Assembly: GCF_000760515.2 (NCBI RefSeq)
Contig: NW_013546178.1
Location: 1 to 64,000 of the forward strand
Source of the DNA: Mitosporidium daphniae
Taxonomy: Eukaryota > Microsporidia
Direction: 5' to 3'
Length of the DNA: 64,000 nucleotides
Shown here: positions 14,315-26,659 of the stretch, in pieces
How the letters are laid out: the number at the start of each line of letters is the position of its first letter
Numbering within the stretch: position 1 is the first letter of the stretch
The notes under the pieces: model-generated
What the model was told of the DNA's origin: nothing
Seen by the model: the letters and a program-made list of their open reading frames with translations, nothing else
The model's database searches: none
Program-made: the position numbers and the translations under genes

Positions 14315-14495
14315 GACAAAGTTTATAATGACAAAAAAATTATTAAAAAAAACATCACAAAGGATGTTCCACATTTAGAATGATTTCTATTTGTCAGCTG
14401 TGATTATGAACAAGAGCGCTGACCAATCATTGTCACCATCAAGTCCGATGTCGGGATAGGGTGTGAAAAGGCGCATTTTCACCAAATTACGCACT

Positions 14496-16748
14496 ATGCT
14501 ACTCACCGCGATAGATTCTCCCACCCTGATTCCAAGCGAGCCTAGGTTCGCCCATGCAAACCCCGATGTGCACATAGCTGAAAAGCCTGTCACTATTGAG
14601 GATCTATCCCTACTGTCTCAAGAACTTTCCGAGCTGGATGTCCCCAAAGGTGGGGCTCTCCACAAGGGCGGCCACATATCATCGCTGGACGTCCAACCCC
14701 AACCCCAACATCACCCACATCCACACCCACATCAATCCCGCCAGGTACAAGAACACACCTCATACCCTCACCAGCAAGCTCCAGACTTCTCGAATCATCT
14801 GTCATCCACGTATCCCACTTACCCCTACAACCAGCATCAGCACATCTCCGTCGTACAGCGCGAACATAGATGGTCCATACCAATGGCATTGCAGTTTAAG
14901 CCACCGCCTGAACAGGCGGACACGTTGCGAATGATGCCCAACGGAGAACAGACAGCGAGGTTGCCCTACCCTGGCCACCATATATTTCCGACCAGCAGGG
15001 TACATACAGGATCCACAAATCCTACGGCTACCTCTCAGTCCTTTGAGGCTACAAAACCTCAACTTTCTTCCACTCCGACGGAACAGTCTAAGGAGTACTT
15101 TTCCGCGATCATGAACAAAGATCATGTGACATATCCAGCGATTTTACCGAAGCAGAATCACGCCTCAGACACCTCATTGGGAGATGCATCACCACCATTA
15201 CCACTGCCCTCCGTTTCTGAAGTTAGCTCTATCTTCACCTTAGAGCTGATCCACGAAGATCTATGGAACCTTTTTGATCAGAATCACAATGAGATGATCA
15301 TAACGCGCTTTGGACGCTGTCTCTTCCCATCCCTCAAGTTCAAGCTATCTGTAGGTCCACGCTATCGCCAGAGCATCTCTGGCTCTTCAGTGATACAGCA
15401 TAACGGCGCGGGCTCTGCAGACGAACCGCTTATCGCCTTTGGACTACAGCTTATCAAGACATCTGCTGAGAAACTCAAATTCCGCCAAGGCTCCTGGATT
15501 CCAAACCACAGACATGGCATGAAATTTCAGTATGGCAACCGTTTTTCCTCCGATGCAACTGCCACGAGTAGCCCCACAAAGTCAGGAACATCCACTGCTG
15601 CCCCTGCTAACCAGGTAGTATATTGGCATCCCTCTGGCGTTCAATCGCTTTCTTTCTGGGCCAAATACGGACTATCCTTTCTAGATGCCAAACTGGCAAA
15701 TGGGAAAAAGTCTGCTCCACAACCTGCGGCTTCGGAAAAAGTCTCCGCCATAGATAAGAAAGGACCTAAGATGCCTCTGATTGCCCCTGGAGGTGAGGCC
15801 ACCCTCATAAACTGCCCCTTGGGTGTGCTTTTCCAGCTGGAGTCCTTTTACGAATACACACCGAAAGTTGTTTGCAAGGTTTATTCGATAGGGGAAAGTG
15901 GCTCGCGTGTACGACATGGAGCCTCTCCACTTCCAATACCGGGTTCAAACCCTTCGTACCGCCCTTCCCTGTCTGCAGAGTTTCTCTTCTCAAAATGCTC
16001 CTTCATTGCCGTGACACATTACCAAAACGCTGCCATCAATATGCTCAAGAAGCAGTACAATCCGCATGCAAAGGGCTTCATTCCAGACTCATCCACCGTT
16101 TCGATGCACCATCTTACTGAAGACGAACAAGAAAGTGAGGACAGAGTAGATGCCGAAGAAAATGTTGAGCAGGATTCAGATGAAGACGAGGTGGATGGAA
16201 TAACTTCTGGCGCATCTTATGACCTCAAGAAGGGAGCAGGGACATCTTATGGCCTCAAGGAGGCAGGAGGGACATCTTATGGCCTCAAGGAGACAGGAGG
16301 GGCATATAAACCGTCAGGGCGTATCTACCCCGCAAAGATACCTTCACCCTCCGGCTTTGAATCCCCTTCTCAAGAGCCGCAATCATTGCATGCCTCGGCA
16401 TACTATGGTGCAGCCCCTATTCCGGCCGGGTCTACATATCACTTGTCTGATTATCAGCTAAGCAACACCTTTCGCCAACGCCAACATGCATACTCGCTTC
16501 CATACAGTGCACCTCAAAATGCTGACAATGTTTCTTTCAACTCGTCAAATAATTTCCCCGGGGACAGAGCTTCCCACCCAACACCAACATCTGGTACACA
16601 AGTACGCAGATATCCCCAGCAACTGAGCACGGGAAGATTTTCTGCTTCTATGGATGCATATTTACCTGCAGAGCTTGAAGACACAGGAGCGGCTGTCGCT
16701 GCAGCCTTACTTGCTTCCTGGTATACTCAGAAGCAGCAGAATAAATAA
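14496..16748 (+). CDS. T-box family transcription factor
   Basis: 750 aa from the ATG at 14496 (the frame is open further upstream without an ATG), intronless. A T-box domain spans about 247-529. Its first strand block is LELIHEDLWNLF. NEMIITRFGRCLFP matches the family signature (T-E-M-I-I-T-K-x-G-R-x-M-F-P). WHPSG and SFWAKYGLSF correspond to the P-D-S-P and W-M-x-x-x-x-S-F region. The end is CSFIAVTHYQNAAINMLK and NPHAKGF, the DNA-contacting 3-10/alpha C-terminal part. The domain is about 280 aa instead of 180-190 because of low-complexity insertions. N-terminal His/Pro-rich and C-terminal Ser/Pro/Tyr-rich arms look disordered. T-box factors are animal developmental regulators also found in a few unicellular relatives and early-diverging fungi. 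Confidence 0.9.
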   Translation: MLLTAIDSPTLIPSEPRFAHANPDVHIAEKPVTIEDLSLLSQELSELDVPKGGALHKGGHISSLDVQPQPQHHPHPHPHQSRQVQEHTSYPHQQAPDFSNHLSSTYPTYPYNQHQHISVVQREHRWSIPMALQFKPPPEQADTLRMMPNGEQTARLPYPGHHIFPTSRVHTGSTNPTATSQSFEATKPQLSSTPTEQSKEYFSAIMNKDHVTYPAILPKQNHASDTSLGDASPPLPLPSVSEVSSIFTLELIHEDLWNLFDQNHNEMIITRFGRCLFPSLKFKLSVGPRYRQSISGSSVIQHNGAGSADEPLIAFGLQLIKTSAEKLKFRQGSWIPNHRHGMKFQYGNRFSSDATATSSPTKSGTSTAAPANQVVYWHPSGVQSLSFWAKYGLSFLDAKLANGKKSAPQPAASEKVSAIDKKGPKMPLIAPGGEATLINCPLGVLFQLESFYEYTPKVVCKVYSIGESGSRVRHGASPLPIPGSNPSYRPSLSAEFLFSKCSFIAVTHYQNAAINMLKKQYNPHAKGFIPDSSTVSMHHLTEDEQESEDRVDAEENVEQDSDEDEVDGITSGASYDLKKGAGTSYGLKEAGGTSYGLKETGGAYKPSGRIYPAKIPSPSGFESPSQEPQSLHASAYYGAAPIPAGSTYHLSDYQLSNTFRQRQHAYSLPYSAPQNADNVSFNSSNNFPGDRASHPTPTSGTQVRRYPQQLSTGRFSASMDAYLPAELEDTGAAVAAALLASWYTQKQQNK
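16216..16305 (+). repeat. In-frame 30-bp repeats in the T-box gene
   Basis: Three tandem units encode variants of GTSYGLKEAG just after the acidic stretch that follows the T-box domain. They are near-identical in DNA, so recent slippage or duplication is likely. Confidence 0.8.
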
Positions 16749-16881: not shown

Positions 16882-19143
16882 TTAGAAATGCTGGGTCCAG
16901 GCACTGACTCTTTCCCGCGCATCAGCAACGCGTACACATGCCTTGGCAAGATCGGTGACAGTAAGATAGGCTGATGAGTCTTCAAAGTGTGAGGAGCTGC
17001 CTAAAAAAGACGAAATACCTACAAGTGACTCCTCCAAGGCTGTGAGTTCTTTGATAAGTGCTGTCTTAAGTACAAGTGCAAATAGGGGGCCTGGAGCTTC
17101 CAATATTTGCTCTTTTAGGATGTCATTCACATATTGGAGAGTTTTTTCTAGAAAAAGATCTGGTCTGGATTTTGCTGTGGAAAATATAGCAGGGATTATC
17201 ACTTCAATACTTTCAATGGAAGGGGGGAGAGTGGCCGCCACTTCTGGATTTGCCAAAAGCTCCCAAACCATTGTGGGAGTGCCAGTGCAAGAGGCAAGCC
17301 GAATTTGCCAATGCAGGGCATCAGTTACATATCCCAGCTCCTTGGCTTCTGAGAGTAACTTTGATATCATCATCTCTGGAGCCTTGGCAGACGATGATGA
17401 GTCAATATACAGGGACTTATTATGTGTGGGCTTGCTATTTGCACAGGATCCATTGAGGTGGATAGTCGCAGGTAGATTGTAAGTAACCGGGGAGGATGCA
17501 AGGAGAAATAGCAAATGAAACCAGCTAAACGTGGCTTTCTTTTGGCTGAGTAGCTCCATTACTCTAGTCCTATTCTCAACCACTGCTGCAGCCGCCGAAA
17601 TAATGTGGCTTAATGTAGTAGGGGCAGGGATCACATCTAATGCAAGCTCAAAGGTCTGCGACGCCAAGGCAGCTCTTCGCCAAAAGTCGAAAAGTACTTG
17701 ATCGTCATATTGAAGCAATAGTTTTGGATTTAGGCGATATATGGAACAGGCGGTCATCTCCGGAGACCGCAATAGAACTGAAGCCTCGAGCAAATCAACA
17801 ACAAATTTTCGGAACCGGTCACGCTCTTGGGGATCCTCGAGAGCAAGAAGCGATGGCGAAAATGTGGAAATTCGTCGCAAGAGTTGCACTGTAAGCAGAG
17901 CGAGAAATTCTCTTTCCTCAGCTTCCTTGCAAGCTTTATGCACACGACCAAGTGAGATCAGTTTTTGCAGCAGCCTTCGAAATTGAAGCATTGGAATTTG
18001 GCCCAAAGGAAGGTCACCCCAGACAGACTGCAGAATGCTACATTTTGGAGGGGTTGGCTGGGAAAGCATCCATTGCAGCAAATTTTTATCAACAAGGAAA
18101 GGTGGACTCGCAGCCTTTAGAGCTTCGCCATTGGAAGTTTCGGAAACTGATGGCTTAAAATGGCTGATTTCCTCCAGCAAAAGAAACGCAAGAGTGTAAA
18201 AGTGGTTGTCGATGGAATGGTCCAATAGGATAGAAACTCTGTCGGGATCATATTTGTAATTCGGATGTGAAAGAATGGCATTTTTGTAAAGCAGCAGAGC
18301 GATGCCCATTTTGGATGGGCCTTTCAAACAGCGGATGGCCAAGGTGGCCATATAAATCGATGGACGCGACGCCCCACTATTTCTACAGTACCATCGCAAC
18401 AGACGGATCGTATGATTCAAAAAGATCTCTCCACATGCGATGTCTTCTTTGGTGTGGGGAAAAAGTAGAATTTGAGAAGAAGACTGCTGCAAGGTTAGAT
18501 TACTTTTGGTATTTGACATTGAGAAACTAGAACATGGAAACGAACTCCTGTTGTTTTGGGTGTTATTTGCTCGAAAGACAAAGTAATAAAGGAGGCTTTG
18601 CGCAGCGTCTCCTGTTGTCAACTTTGCACTTGATAATAACCGAAGCAACGAGTCGGCCTCCTCCATTCTATTTAACACAAGTAGCGATCTGAACAGTGAG
18701 GAAGCGAGATATGAAATCATATCCGAATATTTGCTTACAAATTCAACACCAGATGACATCAAAAGCTTTTCAATGAACGAGCCAAGTGGCAAGAGCAGCT
18801 CTACGATCGAGCTATGACACGCAAGAAATGATGCCGACCTTTTTGGCAAGAGGAGACTTAGTTTATTTTCCAATTCAACGTTTAATCCAAACATCTTCTC
18901 CAAATCTGAGAATGAAGTTTGCTTCCCATACCGATGTGAAGCTTTGTGGGTCGATTTTGGCTCTGCAAGTGACCTTCGAAATTCGGCGGAATGGGTGGAA
19001 AAATGCCGATATCCACGCCTGGGGTAGAGTAAAGATAGTGTGCGCGAAACAAAGGCACTCCCTTTTTGAGTGTGGAACATTGGCAGATCCAATCGGCAAT
19101 TGGGTATCAATTGGGAGACACGAACCAGATCATTCCAACACAT
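16882..19143 (-). CDS. Large alpha-helical (PPR/TPR-like) protein, probably mitochondrial
   Basis: 753 aa from the ATG at 19143; an in-frame extension reaches 19260 without an upstream ATG that fits the promoter. The first 50 residues are basic and Ser-rich and contain RRGYRHFS, which looks like a mitochondrial presequence cleavage region. The rest is almost entirely helical with repeated pairs of amphipathic helices (for example MATLAIRCLKGPSKMGIALL). It has no catalytic motif I recognise. It could be a PPR-type organellar RNA-binding protein; the repeats are too diverged to count by eye. Divergent from the glycosyltransferase with an A/T palindrome at 19165-19186 between them. Confidence 0.7.
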   Translation of the reverse strand: MCWNDLVRVSQLIPNCRLDLPMFHTQKGSAFVSRTLSLLYPRRGYRHFSTHSAEFRRSLAEPKSTHKASHRYGKQTSFSDLEKMFGLNVELENKLSLLLPKRSASFLACHSSIVELLLPLGSFIEKLLMSSGVEFVSKYSDMISYLASSLFRSLLVLNRMEEADSLLRLLSSAKLTTGDAAQSLLYYFVFRANNTQNNRSSFPCSSFSMSNTKSNLTLQQSSSQILLFPHTKEDIACGEIFLNHTIRLLRWYCRNSGASRPSIYMATLAIRCLKGPSKMGIALLLYKNAILSHPNYKYDPDRVSILLDHSIDNHFYTLAFLLLEEISHFKPSVSETSNGEALKAASPPFLVDKNLLQWMLSQPTPPKCSILQSVWGDLPLGQIPMLQFRRLLQKLISLGRVHKACKEAEEREFLALLTVQLLRRISTFSPSLLALEDPQERDRFRKFVVDLLEASVLLRSPEMTACSIYRLNPKLLLQYDDQVLFDFWRRAALASQTFELALDVIPAPTTLSHIISAAAAVVENRTRVMELLSQKKATFSWFHLLFLLASSPVTYNLPATIHLNGSCANSKPTHNKSLYIDSSSSAKAPEMMISKLLSEAKELGYVTDALHWQIRLASCTGTPTMVWELLANPEVAATLPPSIESIEVIIPAIFSTAKSRPDLFLEKTLQYVNDILKEQILEAPGPLFALVLKTALIKELTALEESLVGISSFLGSSSHFEDSSAYLTVTDLAKACVRVADARERVSAWTQHF

Positions 19144-19164
19144 CGAGTAAAATACAAGTGGTGG

Positions 19165-19186
19165 CTTAAATTTTAAGTAAATTTTG
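19165..19186. promoter_or_regulatory. A/T palindrome in divergent promoter
   Basis: CTTAAATTTTAAG followed by TAAATTTT lies midway between start codons at 19143 (minus) and 19230 (plus), only 86 bp apart. The placement favours use in both directions, but this is inferred. Confidence 0.4.
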
Positions 19187-19229
19187 GCCTGTTTCCCAAA
19201 ACGGATGTTGATGGGTTTTGGTTTTAACC

Positions 19230-20501
19230 ATGTTGCCCGCCACTTGCAATAGAAAGACAAGACACCTCTGTGCGATTTTCCTTTCCTGTATTTTGGGCTT
19301 TGCTATTGGTTTTTCGCATGCTGACCCTGCTTGGGATGATATCTCTGTCAATACCCAATTTCCGGATGACTTTTTCAAGGCTTCGCCAGTTAAGTTTACC
19401 ATTATCGTCTTTTGCTGGAAGCGAGCAGAGTCTTTAAACAGACTTCTGGATTCTCTGATAAGATCCGACTATGCCGGCAAAAAGGTTGATTTGCAACTGC
19501 GTATTGATGGGAATTCCTCTATCGAGGTTGTTGATATTGTGTCGCAGTTTAAATGGCCCCATGGCTCCAAGAAGGTTGCACTTAAAAAAAGAAATGCTGG
19601 ACTTGCTAAGGTTGAAATTATTGCTTTCATTCTGTAGTCAATACTGAACGGATGGAACCCAAAATCTGCGTCTTCTTTTGCCATTATGCTCGAAGATGAC
19701 TGTGAGGTGTCAAGATTTTTCTTCCGATATCTGCTACTCGTTTTGGAAAAATTTGACATCCCAAATAAACTGACCGCTAATCCAGCGGACTTTTTCACAT
19801 CTGACCTTGAGAACTTGGTAGGGATTTCGTTGTATGCTCCGATTTTGAACGAACTTGTAAGTCCTACTCGGAACTGGAGTAGCGCCTCGATATTCAATAG
19901 CTCATATGGATCGCCATCATCGTCTGCCGAATTTTCTTCTACCTTTGGGTTAAGGGTTCGCTCGGCATCTTCATGTTTGAACACATTGTTACCATGCCCT
20001 GCTTTATATCGGTTCCAACTTCCCTGTTCGTGGGGTGCATTGTATTTCCCTTGGTGGTGGATTCGTCTTCAAAGATACTATCGCTATAGAACATCTAAAG
20101 CAAACATGCATCTCGATGTCTCCTATCTTGTCCCTAACTCTTATTCCAATTTTTGGTCCAAATCTTGGAAAAAGTGGGCATAATTTTCCTTATCAAATAA
20201 TAGGTTTTTTATAGAATTGTTTTATGCCCATTCATTGTTCATGGTTTATCCTAATACCAAGTATTCGTTCTCGACAAACCACGTTGAGCCCGGAGTTTAT
20301 GCATCGCATTTCCCCCACCGCTCCTCAAATTCATTCGCCGAAATACACCCATTGAGCAAAGGATATTTGGTTCCTCTTTTTACAGCTAAGGAGACCAATG
20401 CGACCGACCTACGAAAATGGATATACAAATGCCATGAAAGTGCGAATTTGAATAATCTCTCTTTTGTTAATCTCTACCATACTCTGGTTCCAAACAAATA
20501 A
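19230..20501 (+). CDS. Glycosyltransferase family 2-like type II membrane protein
   Basis: Exons 19230-19610, 19638-20173 and 20204-20501 (introns 27 and 30 nt) give 404 aa. A signal-anchor (about residues 14-30) precedes a GT-A fold: FTIIVFCWKRAESLNRLLDS as first strand and helix, then LEDD (145-148) in the place of the metal-binding acidic motif. PCSWGALYFPWWW and the NSYSNFWSKSWKKF region recall a group of eukaryotic nucleotide-diphospho-sugar transferases. It probably acts in the Golgi or ER lumen. Donor and acceptor substrates cannot be told from the sequence. Both introns restore one continuous frame. Confidence 0.82.
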
Positions 20502-26437: not shown

Positions 26438-26659
26438 TTAGGGCAGGGTCCCATAATTCAAATTTTTGCGGATCAATTTATAAACTGCCTTTTTTTTTGT
26501 CAAGTACTTACCTGGTGGGAAAGCTGGCGTGATCAAGAAGGCGCCGCTTTCATCTGTCATTATGTCCATTGCACAATCGGATTCATATGGCGGGTGTGAA
26601 CGTCTTATGGCGTCTCAACCATACAATTTTTGATTGCTGGCTGCGTTTGCAGTCTTCAT
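26438..26659 (-). CDS. Possible small orphan gene (66 aa)
   Basis: ATG at 26659 (33 bp upstream of the proteasome promoter region) with exon 26659-26625, a 21-nt GT-AG intron (26604-26624) and exon 26603-26438 gives 66 aa containing MDIMTDESGAFLITPAFPPG and a Lys-rich tail. A consensus-like donor (CAG|GTAAGT at 26511) inside exon 2 suggests that a second splice may replace the Lys-rich tail. AATTAATTAAT precedes the start. No homology recognised. Confidence 0.35.

Follow-up and report, generated by a model that had tools for sequence, protein, structure and literature searches.

The stretch of DNA analysed here (the window) comprises 64,000 nucleotides of contig NW_013546178.1 of Mitosporidium daphniae, a parasite of water fleas akin to the microsporidia, and contains, on its forward strand, a gene for a protein with a T-box domain, the DNA-binding domain of a family of transcription factors that helps shape animal embryos. 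The gene starts at an ATG at 14496 and ends with a stop at 16748, and its frame extends upstream to a GTG at 14463. The closest protein match is MDAP_000910 of M. daphniae (P0002), with which the window protein agrees at 629 of 630 shared positions, i.e. outside a stretch that is removed in P0002. Three protein searches, in which 7996, 2412 and 7992 candidates were scored, gave 63 matches in all, one of them, P0002, being the same gene. Two further matches, P0003 (from ENA) and P0004 (from Logan), have 57% and 40% overall identity to the window protein and are termed Mitosporidium-like by similarity only. Combining the T-box sequence, the predicted T-box fold, a fungal-type residue signature and the conservation in relatives, we think it very likely that the gene encodes a fungal-type T-box regulator of M. 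daphniae. The features of the gene are the following:

14496..16748, forward strand: T-box gene, MDAP_000910 of M. daphniae, an uninterrupted frame of 750 amino acids (open reading frame list, Pfam, protein search)
15228..16097, forward strand: DNA-binding T-box domain of residues 245-534, whose loops are lineage-specific (Pfam, structure model, fold search)
15288..15329, forward strand: NEMIITRFGRCLFP, residues 265-278, containing R274 and C275 (sequence)
16002..16079, forward strand: FIAVTHYQNAAINMLKKQYNPHAKGF, containing H524 and F528, in the helix taken to enter the minor groove (sequence, PDB comparison, passages of PMC11828899)
14583..14627, forward strand: N-terminal motif KPVTIEDLSLLSQEL, of which KPVTI is identical in P0003 and P0004 and the remainder partly so (alignment)
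14650..15009, forward strand: 360-base in-frame GT..AG stretch, treated as an intron by the public model P0002 and retained as conserved protein in P0003 (alignment)
16704..16736, forward strand: C-terminal motif ALLASWYTQKQ, with LLASWYTQKQ unchanged between the window protein, P0003 and P0004 (alignment)
14460..14468, forward strand: GGTGTGAAA, matching 9/10 bases of the T-box element AGGTGTGAAA, a candidate autoregulatory site (word search, no statistical support)

The T-box identity and the predicted T-box fold of the window protein are confirmed by sequence comparison and structure modelling. The Pfam T-box model (PF00907) matches in two stretches with E 1.2e-22 and 81.1 bits against a curated cut-off of 26 bits, and 14 of the 15 sequence matches in the PDB at E up to 1 are T-box proteins, with TBX21 at the top (E 4.3e-11). 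By model and fold search, the predicted structure is an immunoglobulin-like beta-sandwich with C-terminal helices, in which the loops between strands are modelled at low confidence; among the fold matches none at E 1e-3 was viral. The sequence-only reading had recognized the T-box from NEMIITRFGRCLFP, IAVTHYQN and NPHAKGF, which are located at residues 265-278, 504-511 and 522-528, and had staked this identification on a T-box match and on an immunoglobulin fold with a C-terminal helix; both were found. The long insertions that it had noticed between strands are likewise present and have counterparts at matching places, with differing lengths, in P0003 and P0004. Because the relatives have loops in equivalent positions, the insertions seem to be genuine loops of the protein, and unspliced in-frame introns are disfavoured as their source.

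The same comparison bears on the gene model. In the public model P0002, residues 52-171 are omitted as an intron, whereas the window frame reads through them; the stretch concerned has a length divisible by three and is free of stops. P0003 aligns to this region with a local score of 198, which was reached in none of 300 shuffles, and P0004 is too divergent across it for comparison. Because P0003 retains the region as protein, 14650-15009 is most likely coding here, and its treatment in the public model is likely a misannotation or, alternatively, reflects an optional in-frame intron. More generally, the conservation of the gene in the two Mitosporidium-like sequences gives indirect support to the earlier suggestion that it is important to the organism.

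To define the class to which the protein belongs, residues were scored in 54 non-animal rows (the window protein, 13 named fungi, i.e. P0007-P0013, P0015-P0018, P0022 and P0023, and 40 proteins without organism name) and nine animal rows (Brachyury, Tbx and Eomes), with P0002 left out. The third search was run with a profile built from proteins of this kind, and its matches were thus preselected for likeness; seven of the 13 named fungi were retrieved with the window protein alone. The non-animal rows have HYQ and NPH in 54/54, GRC in 53/54 and LKK in 52/54, the remaining two having MKK. In contrast, the animal rows have GRR in 9/9, and NPF, LKI and A or S before YQ each in 7/7, two rows being unscorable at these places. 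With GRC, HYQ, LKK and NPH the window protein is fungal-type at all four places and animal-type at none.

These places include residues that contact DNA. R274 occupies what we take to be the position of R69 of Brachyury, as counted along the Brachyury sequence, and C275 that of the second Arg of the animal GRR; H524 (16065-16067) and F528 stand at the places of F213 and F217. Thus, the equivalent of R69 and the second minor-groove Phe are both kept in the window protein. Among the non-animal rows His is found at the F213 place in 54/54, Cys in place of the second GRR Arg in 53/54, Lys after the LK place in 54/54 and the F217 Phe in 53/54, i.e. the DNA-contact residues differ class-wide between the non-animal rows and the animals. 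In human Brachyury, according to passages of PMC11828899, R69 makes contact with a guanine in the element, both F213 and F217 insert into the minor groove, and the main-chain carbonyl of F213 also contacts a guanine.

The residue classes are paralleled by the tree. We built a quick tree of 63 rows and a careful tree of 35 rows hand-picked from these, comprising all nine animals, 15 rows with a fungal or Mitosporidium-like label, and 11 without name. In the careful tree, the nine animal rows are split from the 26 others at 100/100, and the window protein lies on the same side as the named fungi. The phylogeny with non-metazoan T-box proteins that the sequence-only reading had called for sets the animals apart, in a set that holds no named unicellular holozoan (Capsaspora or an ichthyosporean) and no Daphnia row; being built without an outgroup, the tree gives neither the direction of the residue changes nor an ancestral state. 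P0006 and P0027, both from ENA, lie next to Mitosporidium with weak support: this grouping had a Shimodaira-Hasegawa-like approximate likelihood ratio test (SH-aLRT) value of 98 in the quick tree and 84/44 in the careful tree, and given that the careful tree gave only 84/44 we adopt the weaker value. There, 84/44 applies to a group of five, P0006 joins the three Mitosporidium-type rows at 62/73, and the end branches of P0027 and P0062 are very long.

Several observations weigh against the reading of the gene as a fungal-type T-box regulator, and they come from the tree, the contact helix and the target sites. In the tree, the exact branch inside the fungal class is weakly supported (84/44), Mitosporidium sits on a long branch (1.65 changes per column), and the data do not reject a split that has Mitosporidium together with all nine animal rows (p 0.167). 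This last result could be read as horizontal transfer of the gene from Daphnia or another animal, the more so as the parasite lives within an animal and T-boxes are abundant in animals; but a basal position among the fungal-type rows would yield the identical split and needs no transfer. Moreover, nesting among the animals is rejected by the approximately unbiased (AU) test (p 0.0006, held with the eight non-Brachyury rows), as is grouping with the single Brachyury row (AU p 0.0002), the four signature places are fungal-type with none animal-type, and the nearest named matches outside Mitosporidium are from Basidiobolus, Bifiguratus and Mortierella. In this set, which has no Daphnia row, we regard transfer as highly unlikely and suggest that the gene was probably inherited, because its form is common with early fungi. 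Decay is a very unlikely reading, too. A relic whose frame was kept by chance and which no longer acts would be in line with a single copy, loops that are long and variable, a His in place of a minor-groove Phe and the lack of enrichment of target sites, but the 750-codon frame is intact and matched almost completely in a second assembly, the T-box and the tail motifs are conserved in relatives as distant as P0004, and the His is present in every one of the 54 non-animal rows. That the contig comes from a contaminant or was misbinned we consider exceedingly improbable: the assembly measures 4.66 Mb, less than the M. daphniae sizes of 5.64 and 5.83 Mb in passages of PMC5701793 and PMC12449221, but the same protein is found on an 875,980-base contig of the M. 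daphniae record (the window contig has 94,646 bases), the two assemblies agree, and around the gene lie other genes of ordinary eukaryotic kinds together with one for U1 RNA.

A different DNA specificity, in which the factor does not read the canonical AGGTGTGAAA, is compatible with a fungal-type T-box regulator, and we take it as a real possibility, though not as the better bet. The His at the F213 place may change the binding site, and it is accompanied class-wide by the Cys and the Lys described above; in addition, the canonical site is not enriched. GGTGTGA occurs two times in the window against 5.3 expected, and AGGTGTGAAA four times in the genome against six for a reversed control. In the 150 bases upstream of 103 open reading frames (200 codons or more, taken from 304 kb), counts for three 6-mers contained in the site were 8, 8 and 5 against 7.7, 6.6 and 4.7 expected. 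GGTGTGA itself was found three times upstream and three times in the bodies of these frames, which is 6.9 times the body rate and points in the opposite direction, though with only six sites in total, one of which is the T-box gene's own. Nematode T-box proteins have divergent motifs and their site can shift (passages of PMC4434323), so a changed preference would have a precedent. In contrast, the base-contacting Arg is kept, as is the F217 Phe in all but one of the non-animal rows, and the guanine contact of F213 is made by a main-chain carbonyl (passages of PMC11828899), which His can supply.

Returning to the fungal-type T-box regulator, we suggest that the protein would enter the nucleus and bind a T-box element close to GGTGTG by means of the conserved R274 together with the C-terminal helix, where Brachyury has two minor-groove phenylalanines and this protein has His524 at the place of one. 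In this model, the Arg contact and the main-chain contact can persist and one aromatic wedge would be His. A GGTGTG-like site is described in passages of PMC4434323 as common to T-box classes and distant phyla; it would be the simplest reading here also, with a possibly altered preference. The tails would carry the effector function, and the conserved short motifs in them may recruit co-regulators. Speculatively, the protein might control a stage-specific gene set, such as that for spore formation, and might regulate its own promoter, given GGTGTGAAA, which lies 27 bases before the ATG; the life-cycle switch of the sequence-only reading is likewise speculative. Because the site counts do not support a broad regulon, autoregulation is an idea only; autoregulation together with a regulon was set aside, the word counts being at or below expectation or control.

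The T-box gene is present in one copy, matched in two pieces, in the assembly of 4.66 Mb and 147 contigs; this size and the M. daphniae protein match bear out the earlier notion of a compact genome on the fungal side. Other genes in the window, by Pfam, encode a double ABC ATPase, which we take as ABC-F, an Rpb2-type RNA polymerase subunit, a Pumilio-repeat protein and a Nop-domain protein. The T-box gene and the divergent ABC gene have a common 240-base interval, which contains GGTGTGAAA, and on the other side the T-box gene is adjoined convergently by a 792-codon frame (16882-19260, reverse strand) without Pfam matches at E up to 1. A U1 spliceosomal RNA gene at 26504-26659 (forward strand, 83.6 bits), within which one GGTGTGA word lies, suggests that splicing is retained.

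Outside the window, the quick tree contains a separate clade (SH-aLRT 98) of 31 short T-box proteins of 224-362 amino acids (P0026, P0028, P0030, P0032-P0034, P0036, P0037, P0039-P0042, P0044-P0049, P0051-P0062 and P0064). A loose tail pattern such as DVxxASLALEKMS, written after seeing these proteins, is found in 29/31, and a scoring matrix was built. By eye, the C-terminal motif of Mitosporidium resembles this tail, but the matrix scores do not support a common motif: the best place lies elsewhere in P0001 and P0006 and overlaps the C-terminal motif in P0003 and P0004, and shuffled tails reach the scores of P0001, P0006, P0003 and P0004 in 297, 848, 646 and 516 of 1000 cases. In P0027 the best place is near the end (48/1000 shuffles), to be compared with 54/1000 for a Brachyury control, P0014, and 72/1000 for P0024. 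A search for a viral origin of the short proteins, with 11 of the 31 as query, gave 54 pattern matches in IMG/VR and 0 confirmed relatives.

Fungal T-box proteins and the Pfam label of MDAP_000910 were already known; the interest lies in the host lineage and in the differing DNA-contact residue. In passages from the literature, T-box is listed among fungal factor families (PMC5415576) and described as completely lost in the ancestor of Dikarya (PMC10406608), while PMC12534020 treats the placement of M. daphniae as a short-branch microsporidian as debated and reports two new Mitosporidium species from land-flatworm sequence data, which shows that assemblies of the kind behind P0003 and P0004 exist. 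We found no paper joining the T-box to Mitosporidium or Rozella in the open-licence literature, subscription journals and supplements being outside its scope; the gene is unnamed in passages of PMC10406608, PMC5415576, PMC5701793 (T-box 0 times) and PMC12449221, which does not show that it is unreported. Among the source-given names of the 63 matches, most of which carry none, there is no classical microsporidian, Rozella or Paramicrosporidium. With an intact fungal-type copy, the T-box family is placed in a strongly reduced lineage on the fungal side, which suggests that residues of the fungal type were present before the split of the microsporidian line. The gene also provides a single-copy system for studying the role of a T-box in the absence of an animal body. 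As a tentative and rather doubtful proposal, the T-box class of fungi and their deepest parasitic relatives may read DNA differently from that of animals (His at Phe213, Cys at the second Arg). This class would predate the split, and in M. daphniae it would have come through extreme genome reduction as the master regulator of a parasite stage, having conserved docking motifs of its own at both termini.

Compared with known systems, the protein is already on record as MDAP_000910, named 'hypothetical protein' despite a precomputed database label of PF00907, and our analysis supplies a function class for this record. Brachyury (human TBXT and Xenopus T; PDB 6f58 and 1xbr) differs from the window protein, which has His for F213 and Cys for the second Arg of GRR, and in loops and tails. 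The T-box proteins of early-diverging fungi (Basidiobolus, Bifiguratus, Mortierella and allies, Phlyctochytrium, Paraglomus and Piromyces) resemble it in having PF00907, HYQ, NPH, GRC and LKK and group with it on the side of the tree away from the animals. Seven named fungal matches are 27-32% identical to it over the domain, and Mitosporidium is set apart from them by longer loops, other tails and a long branch.
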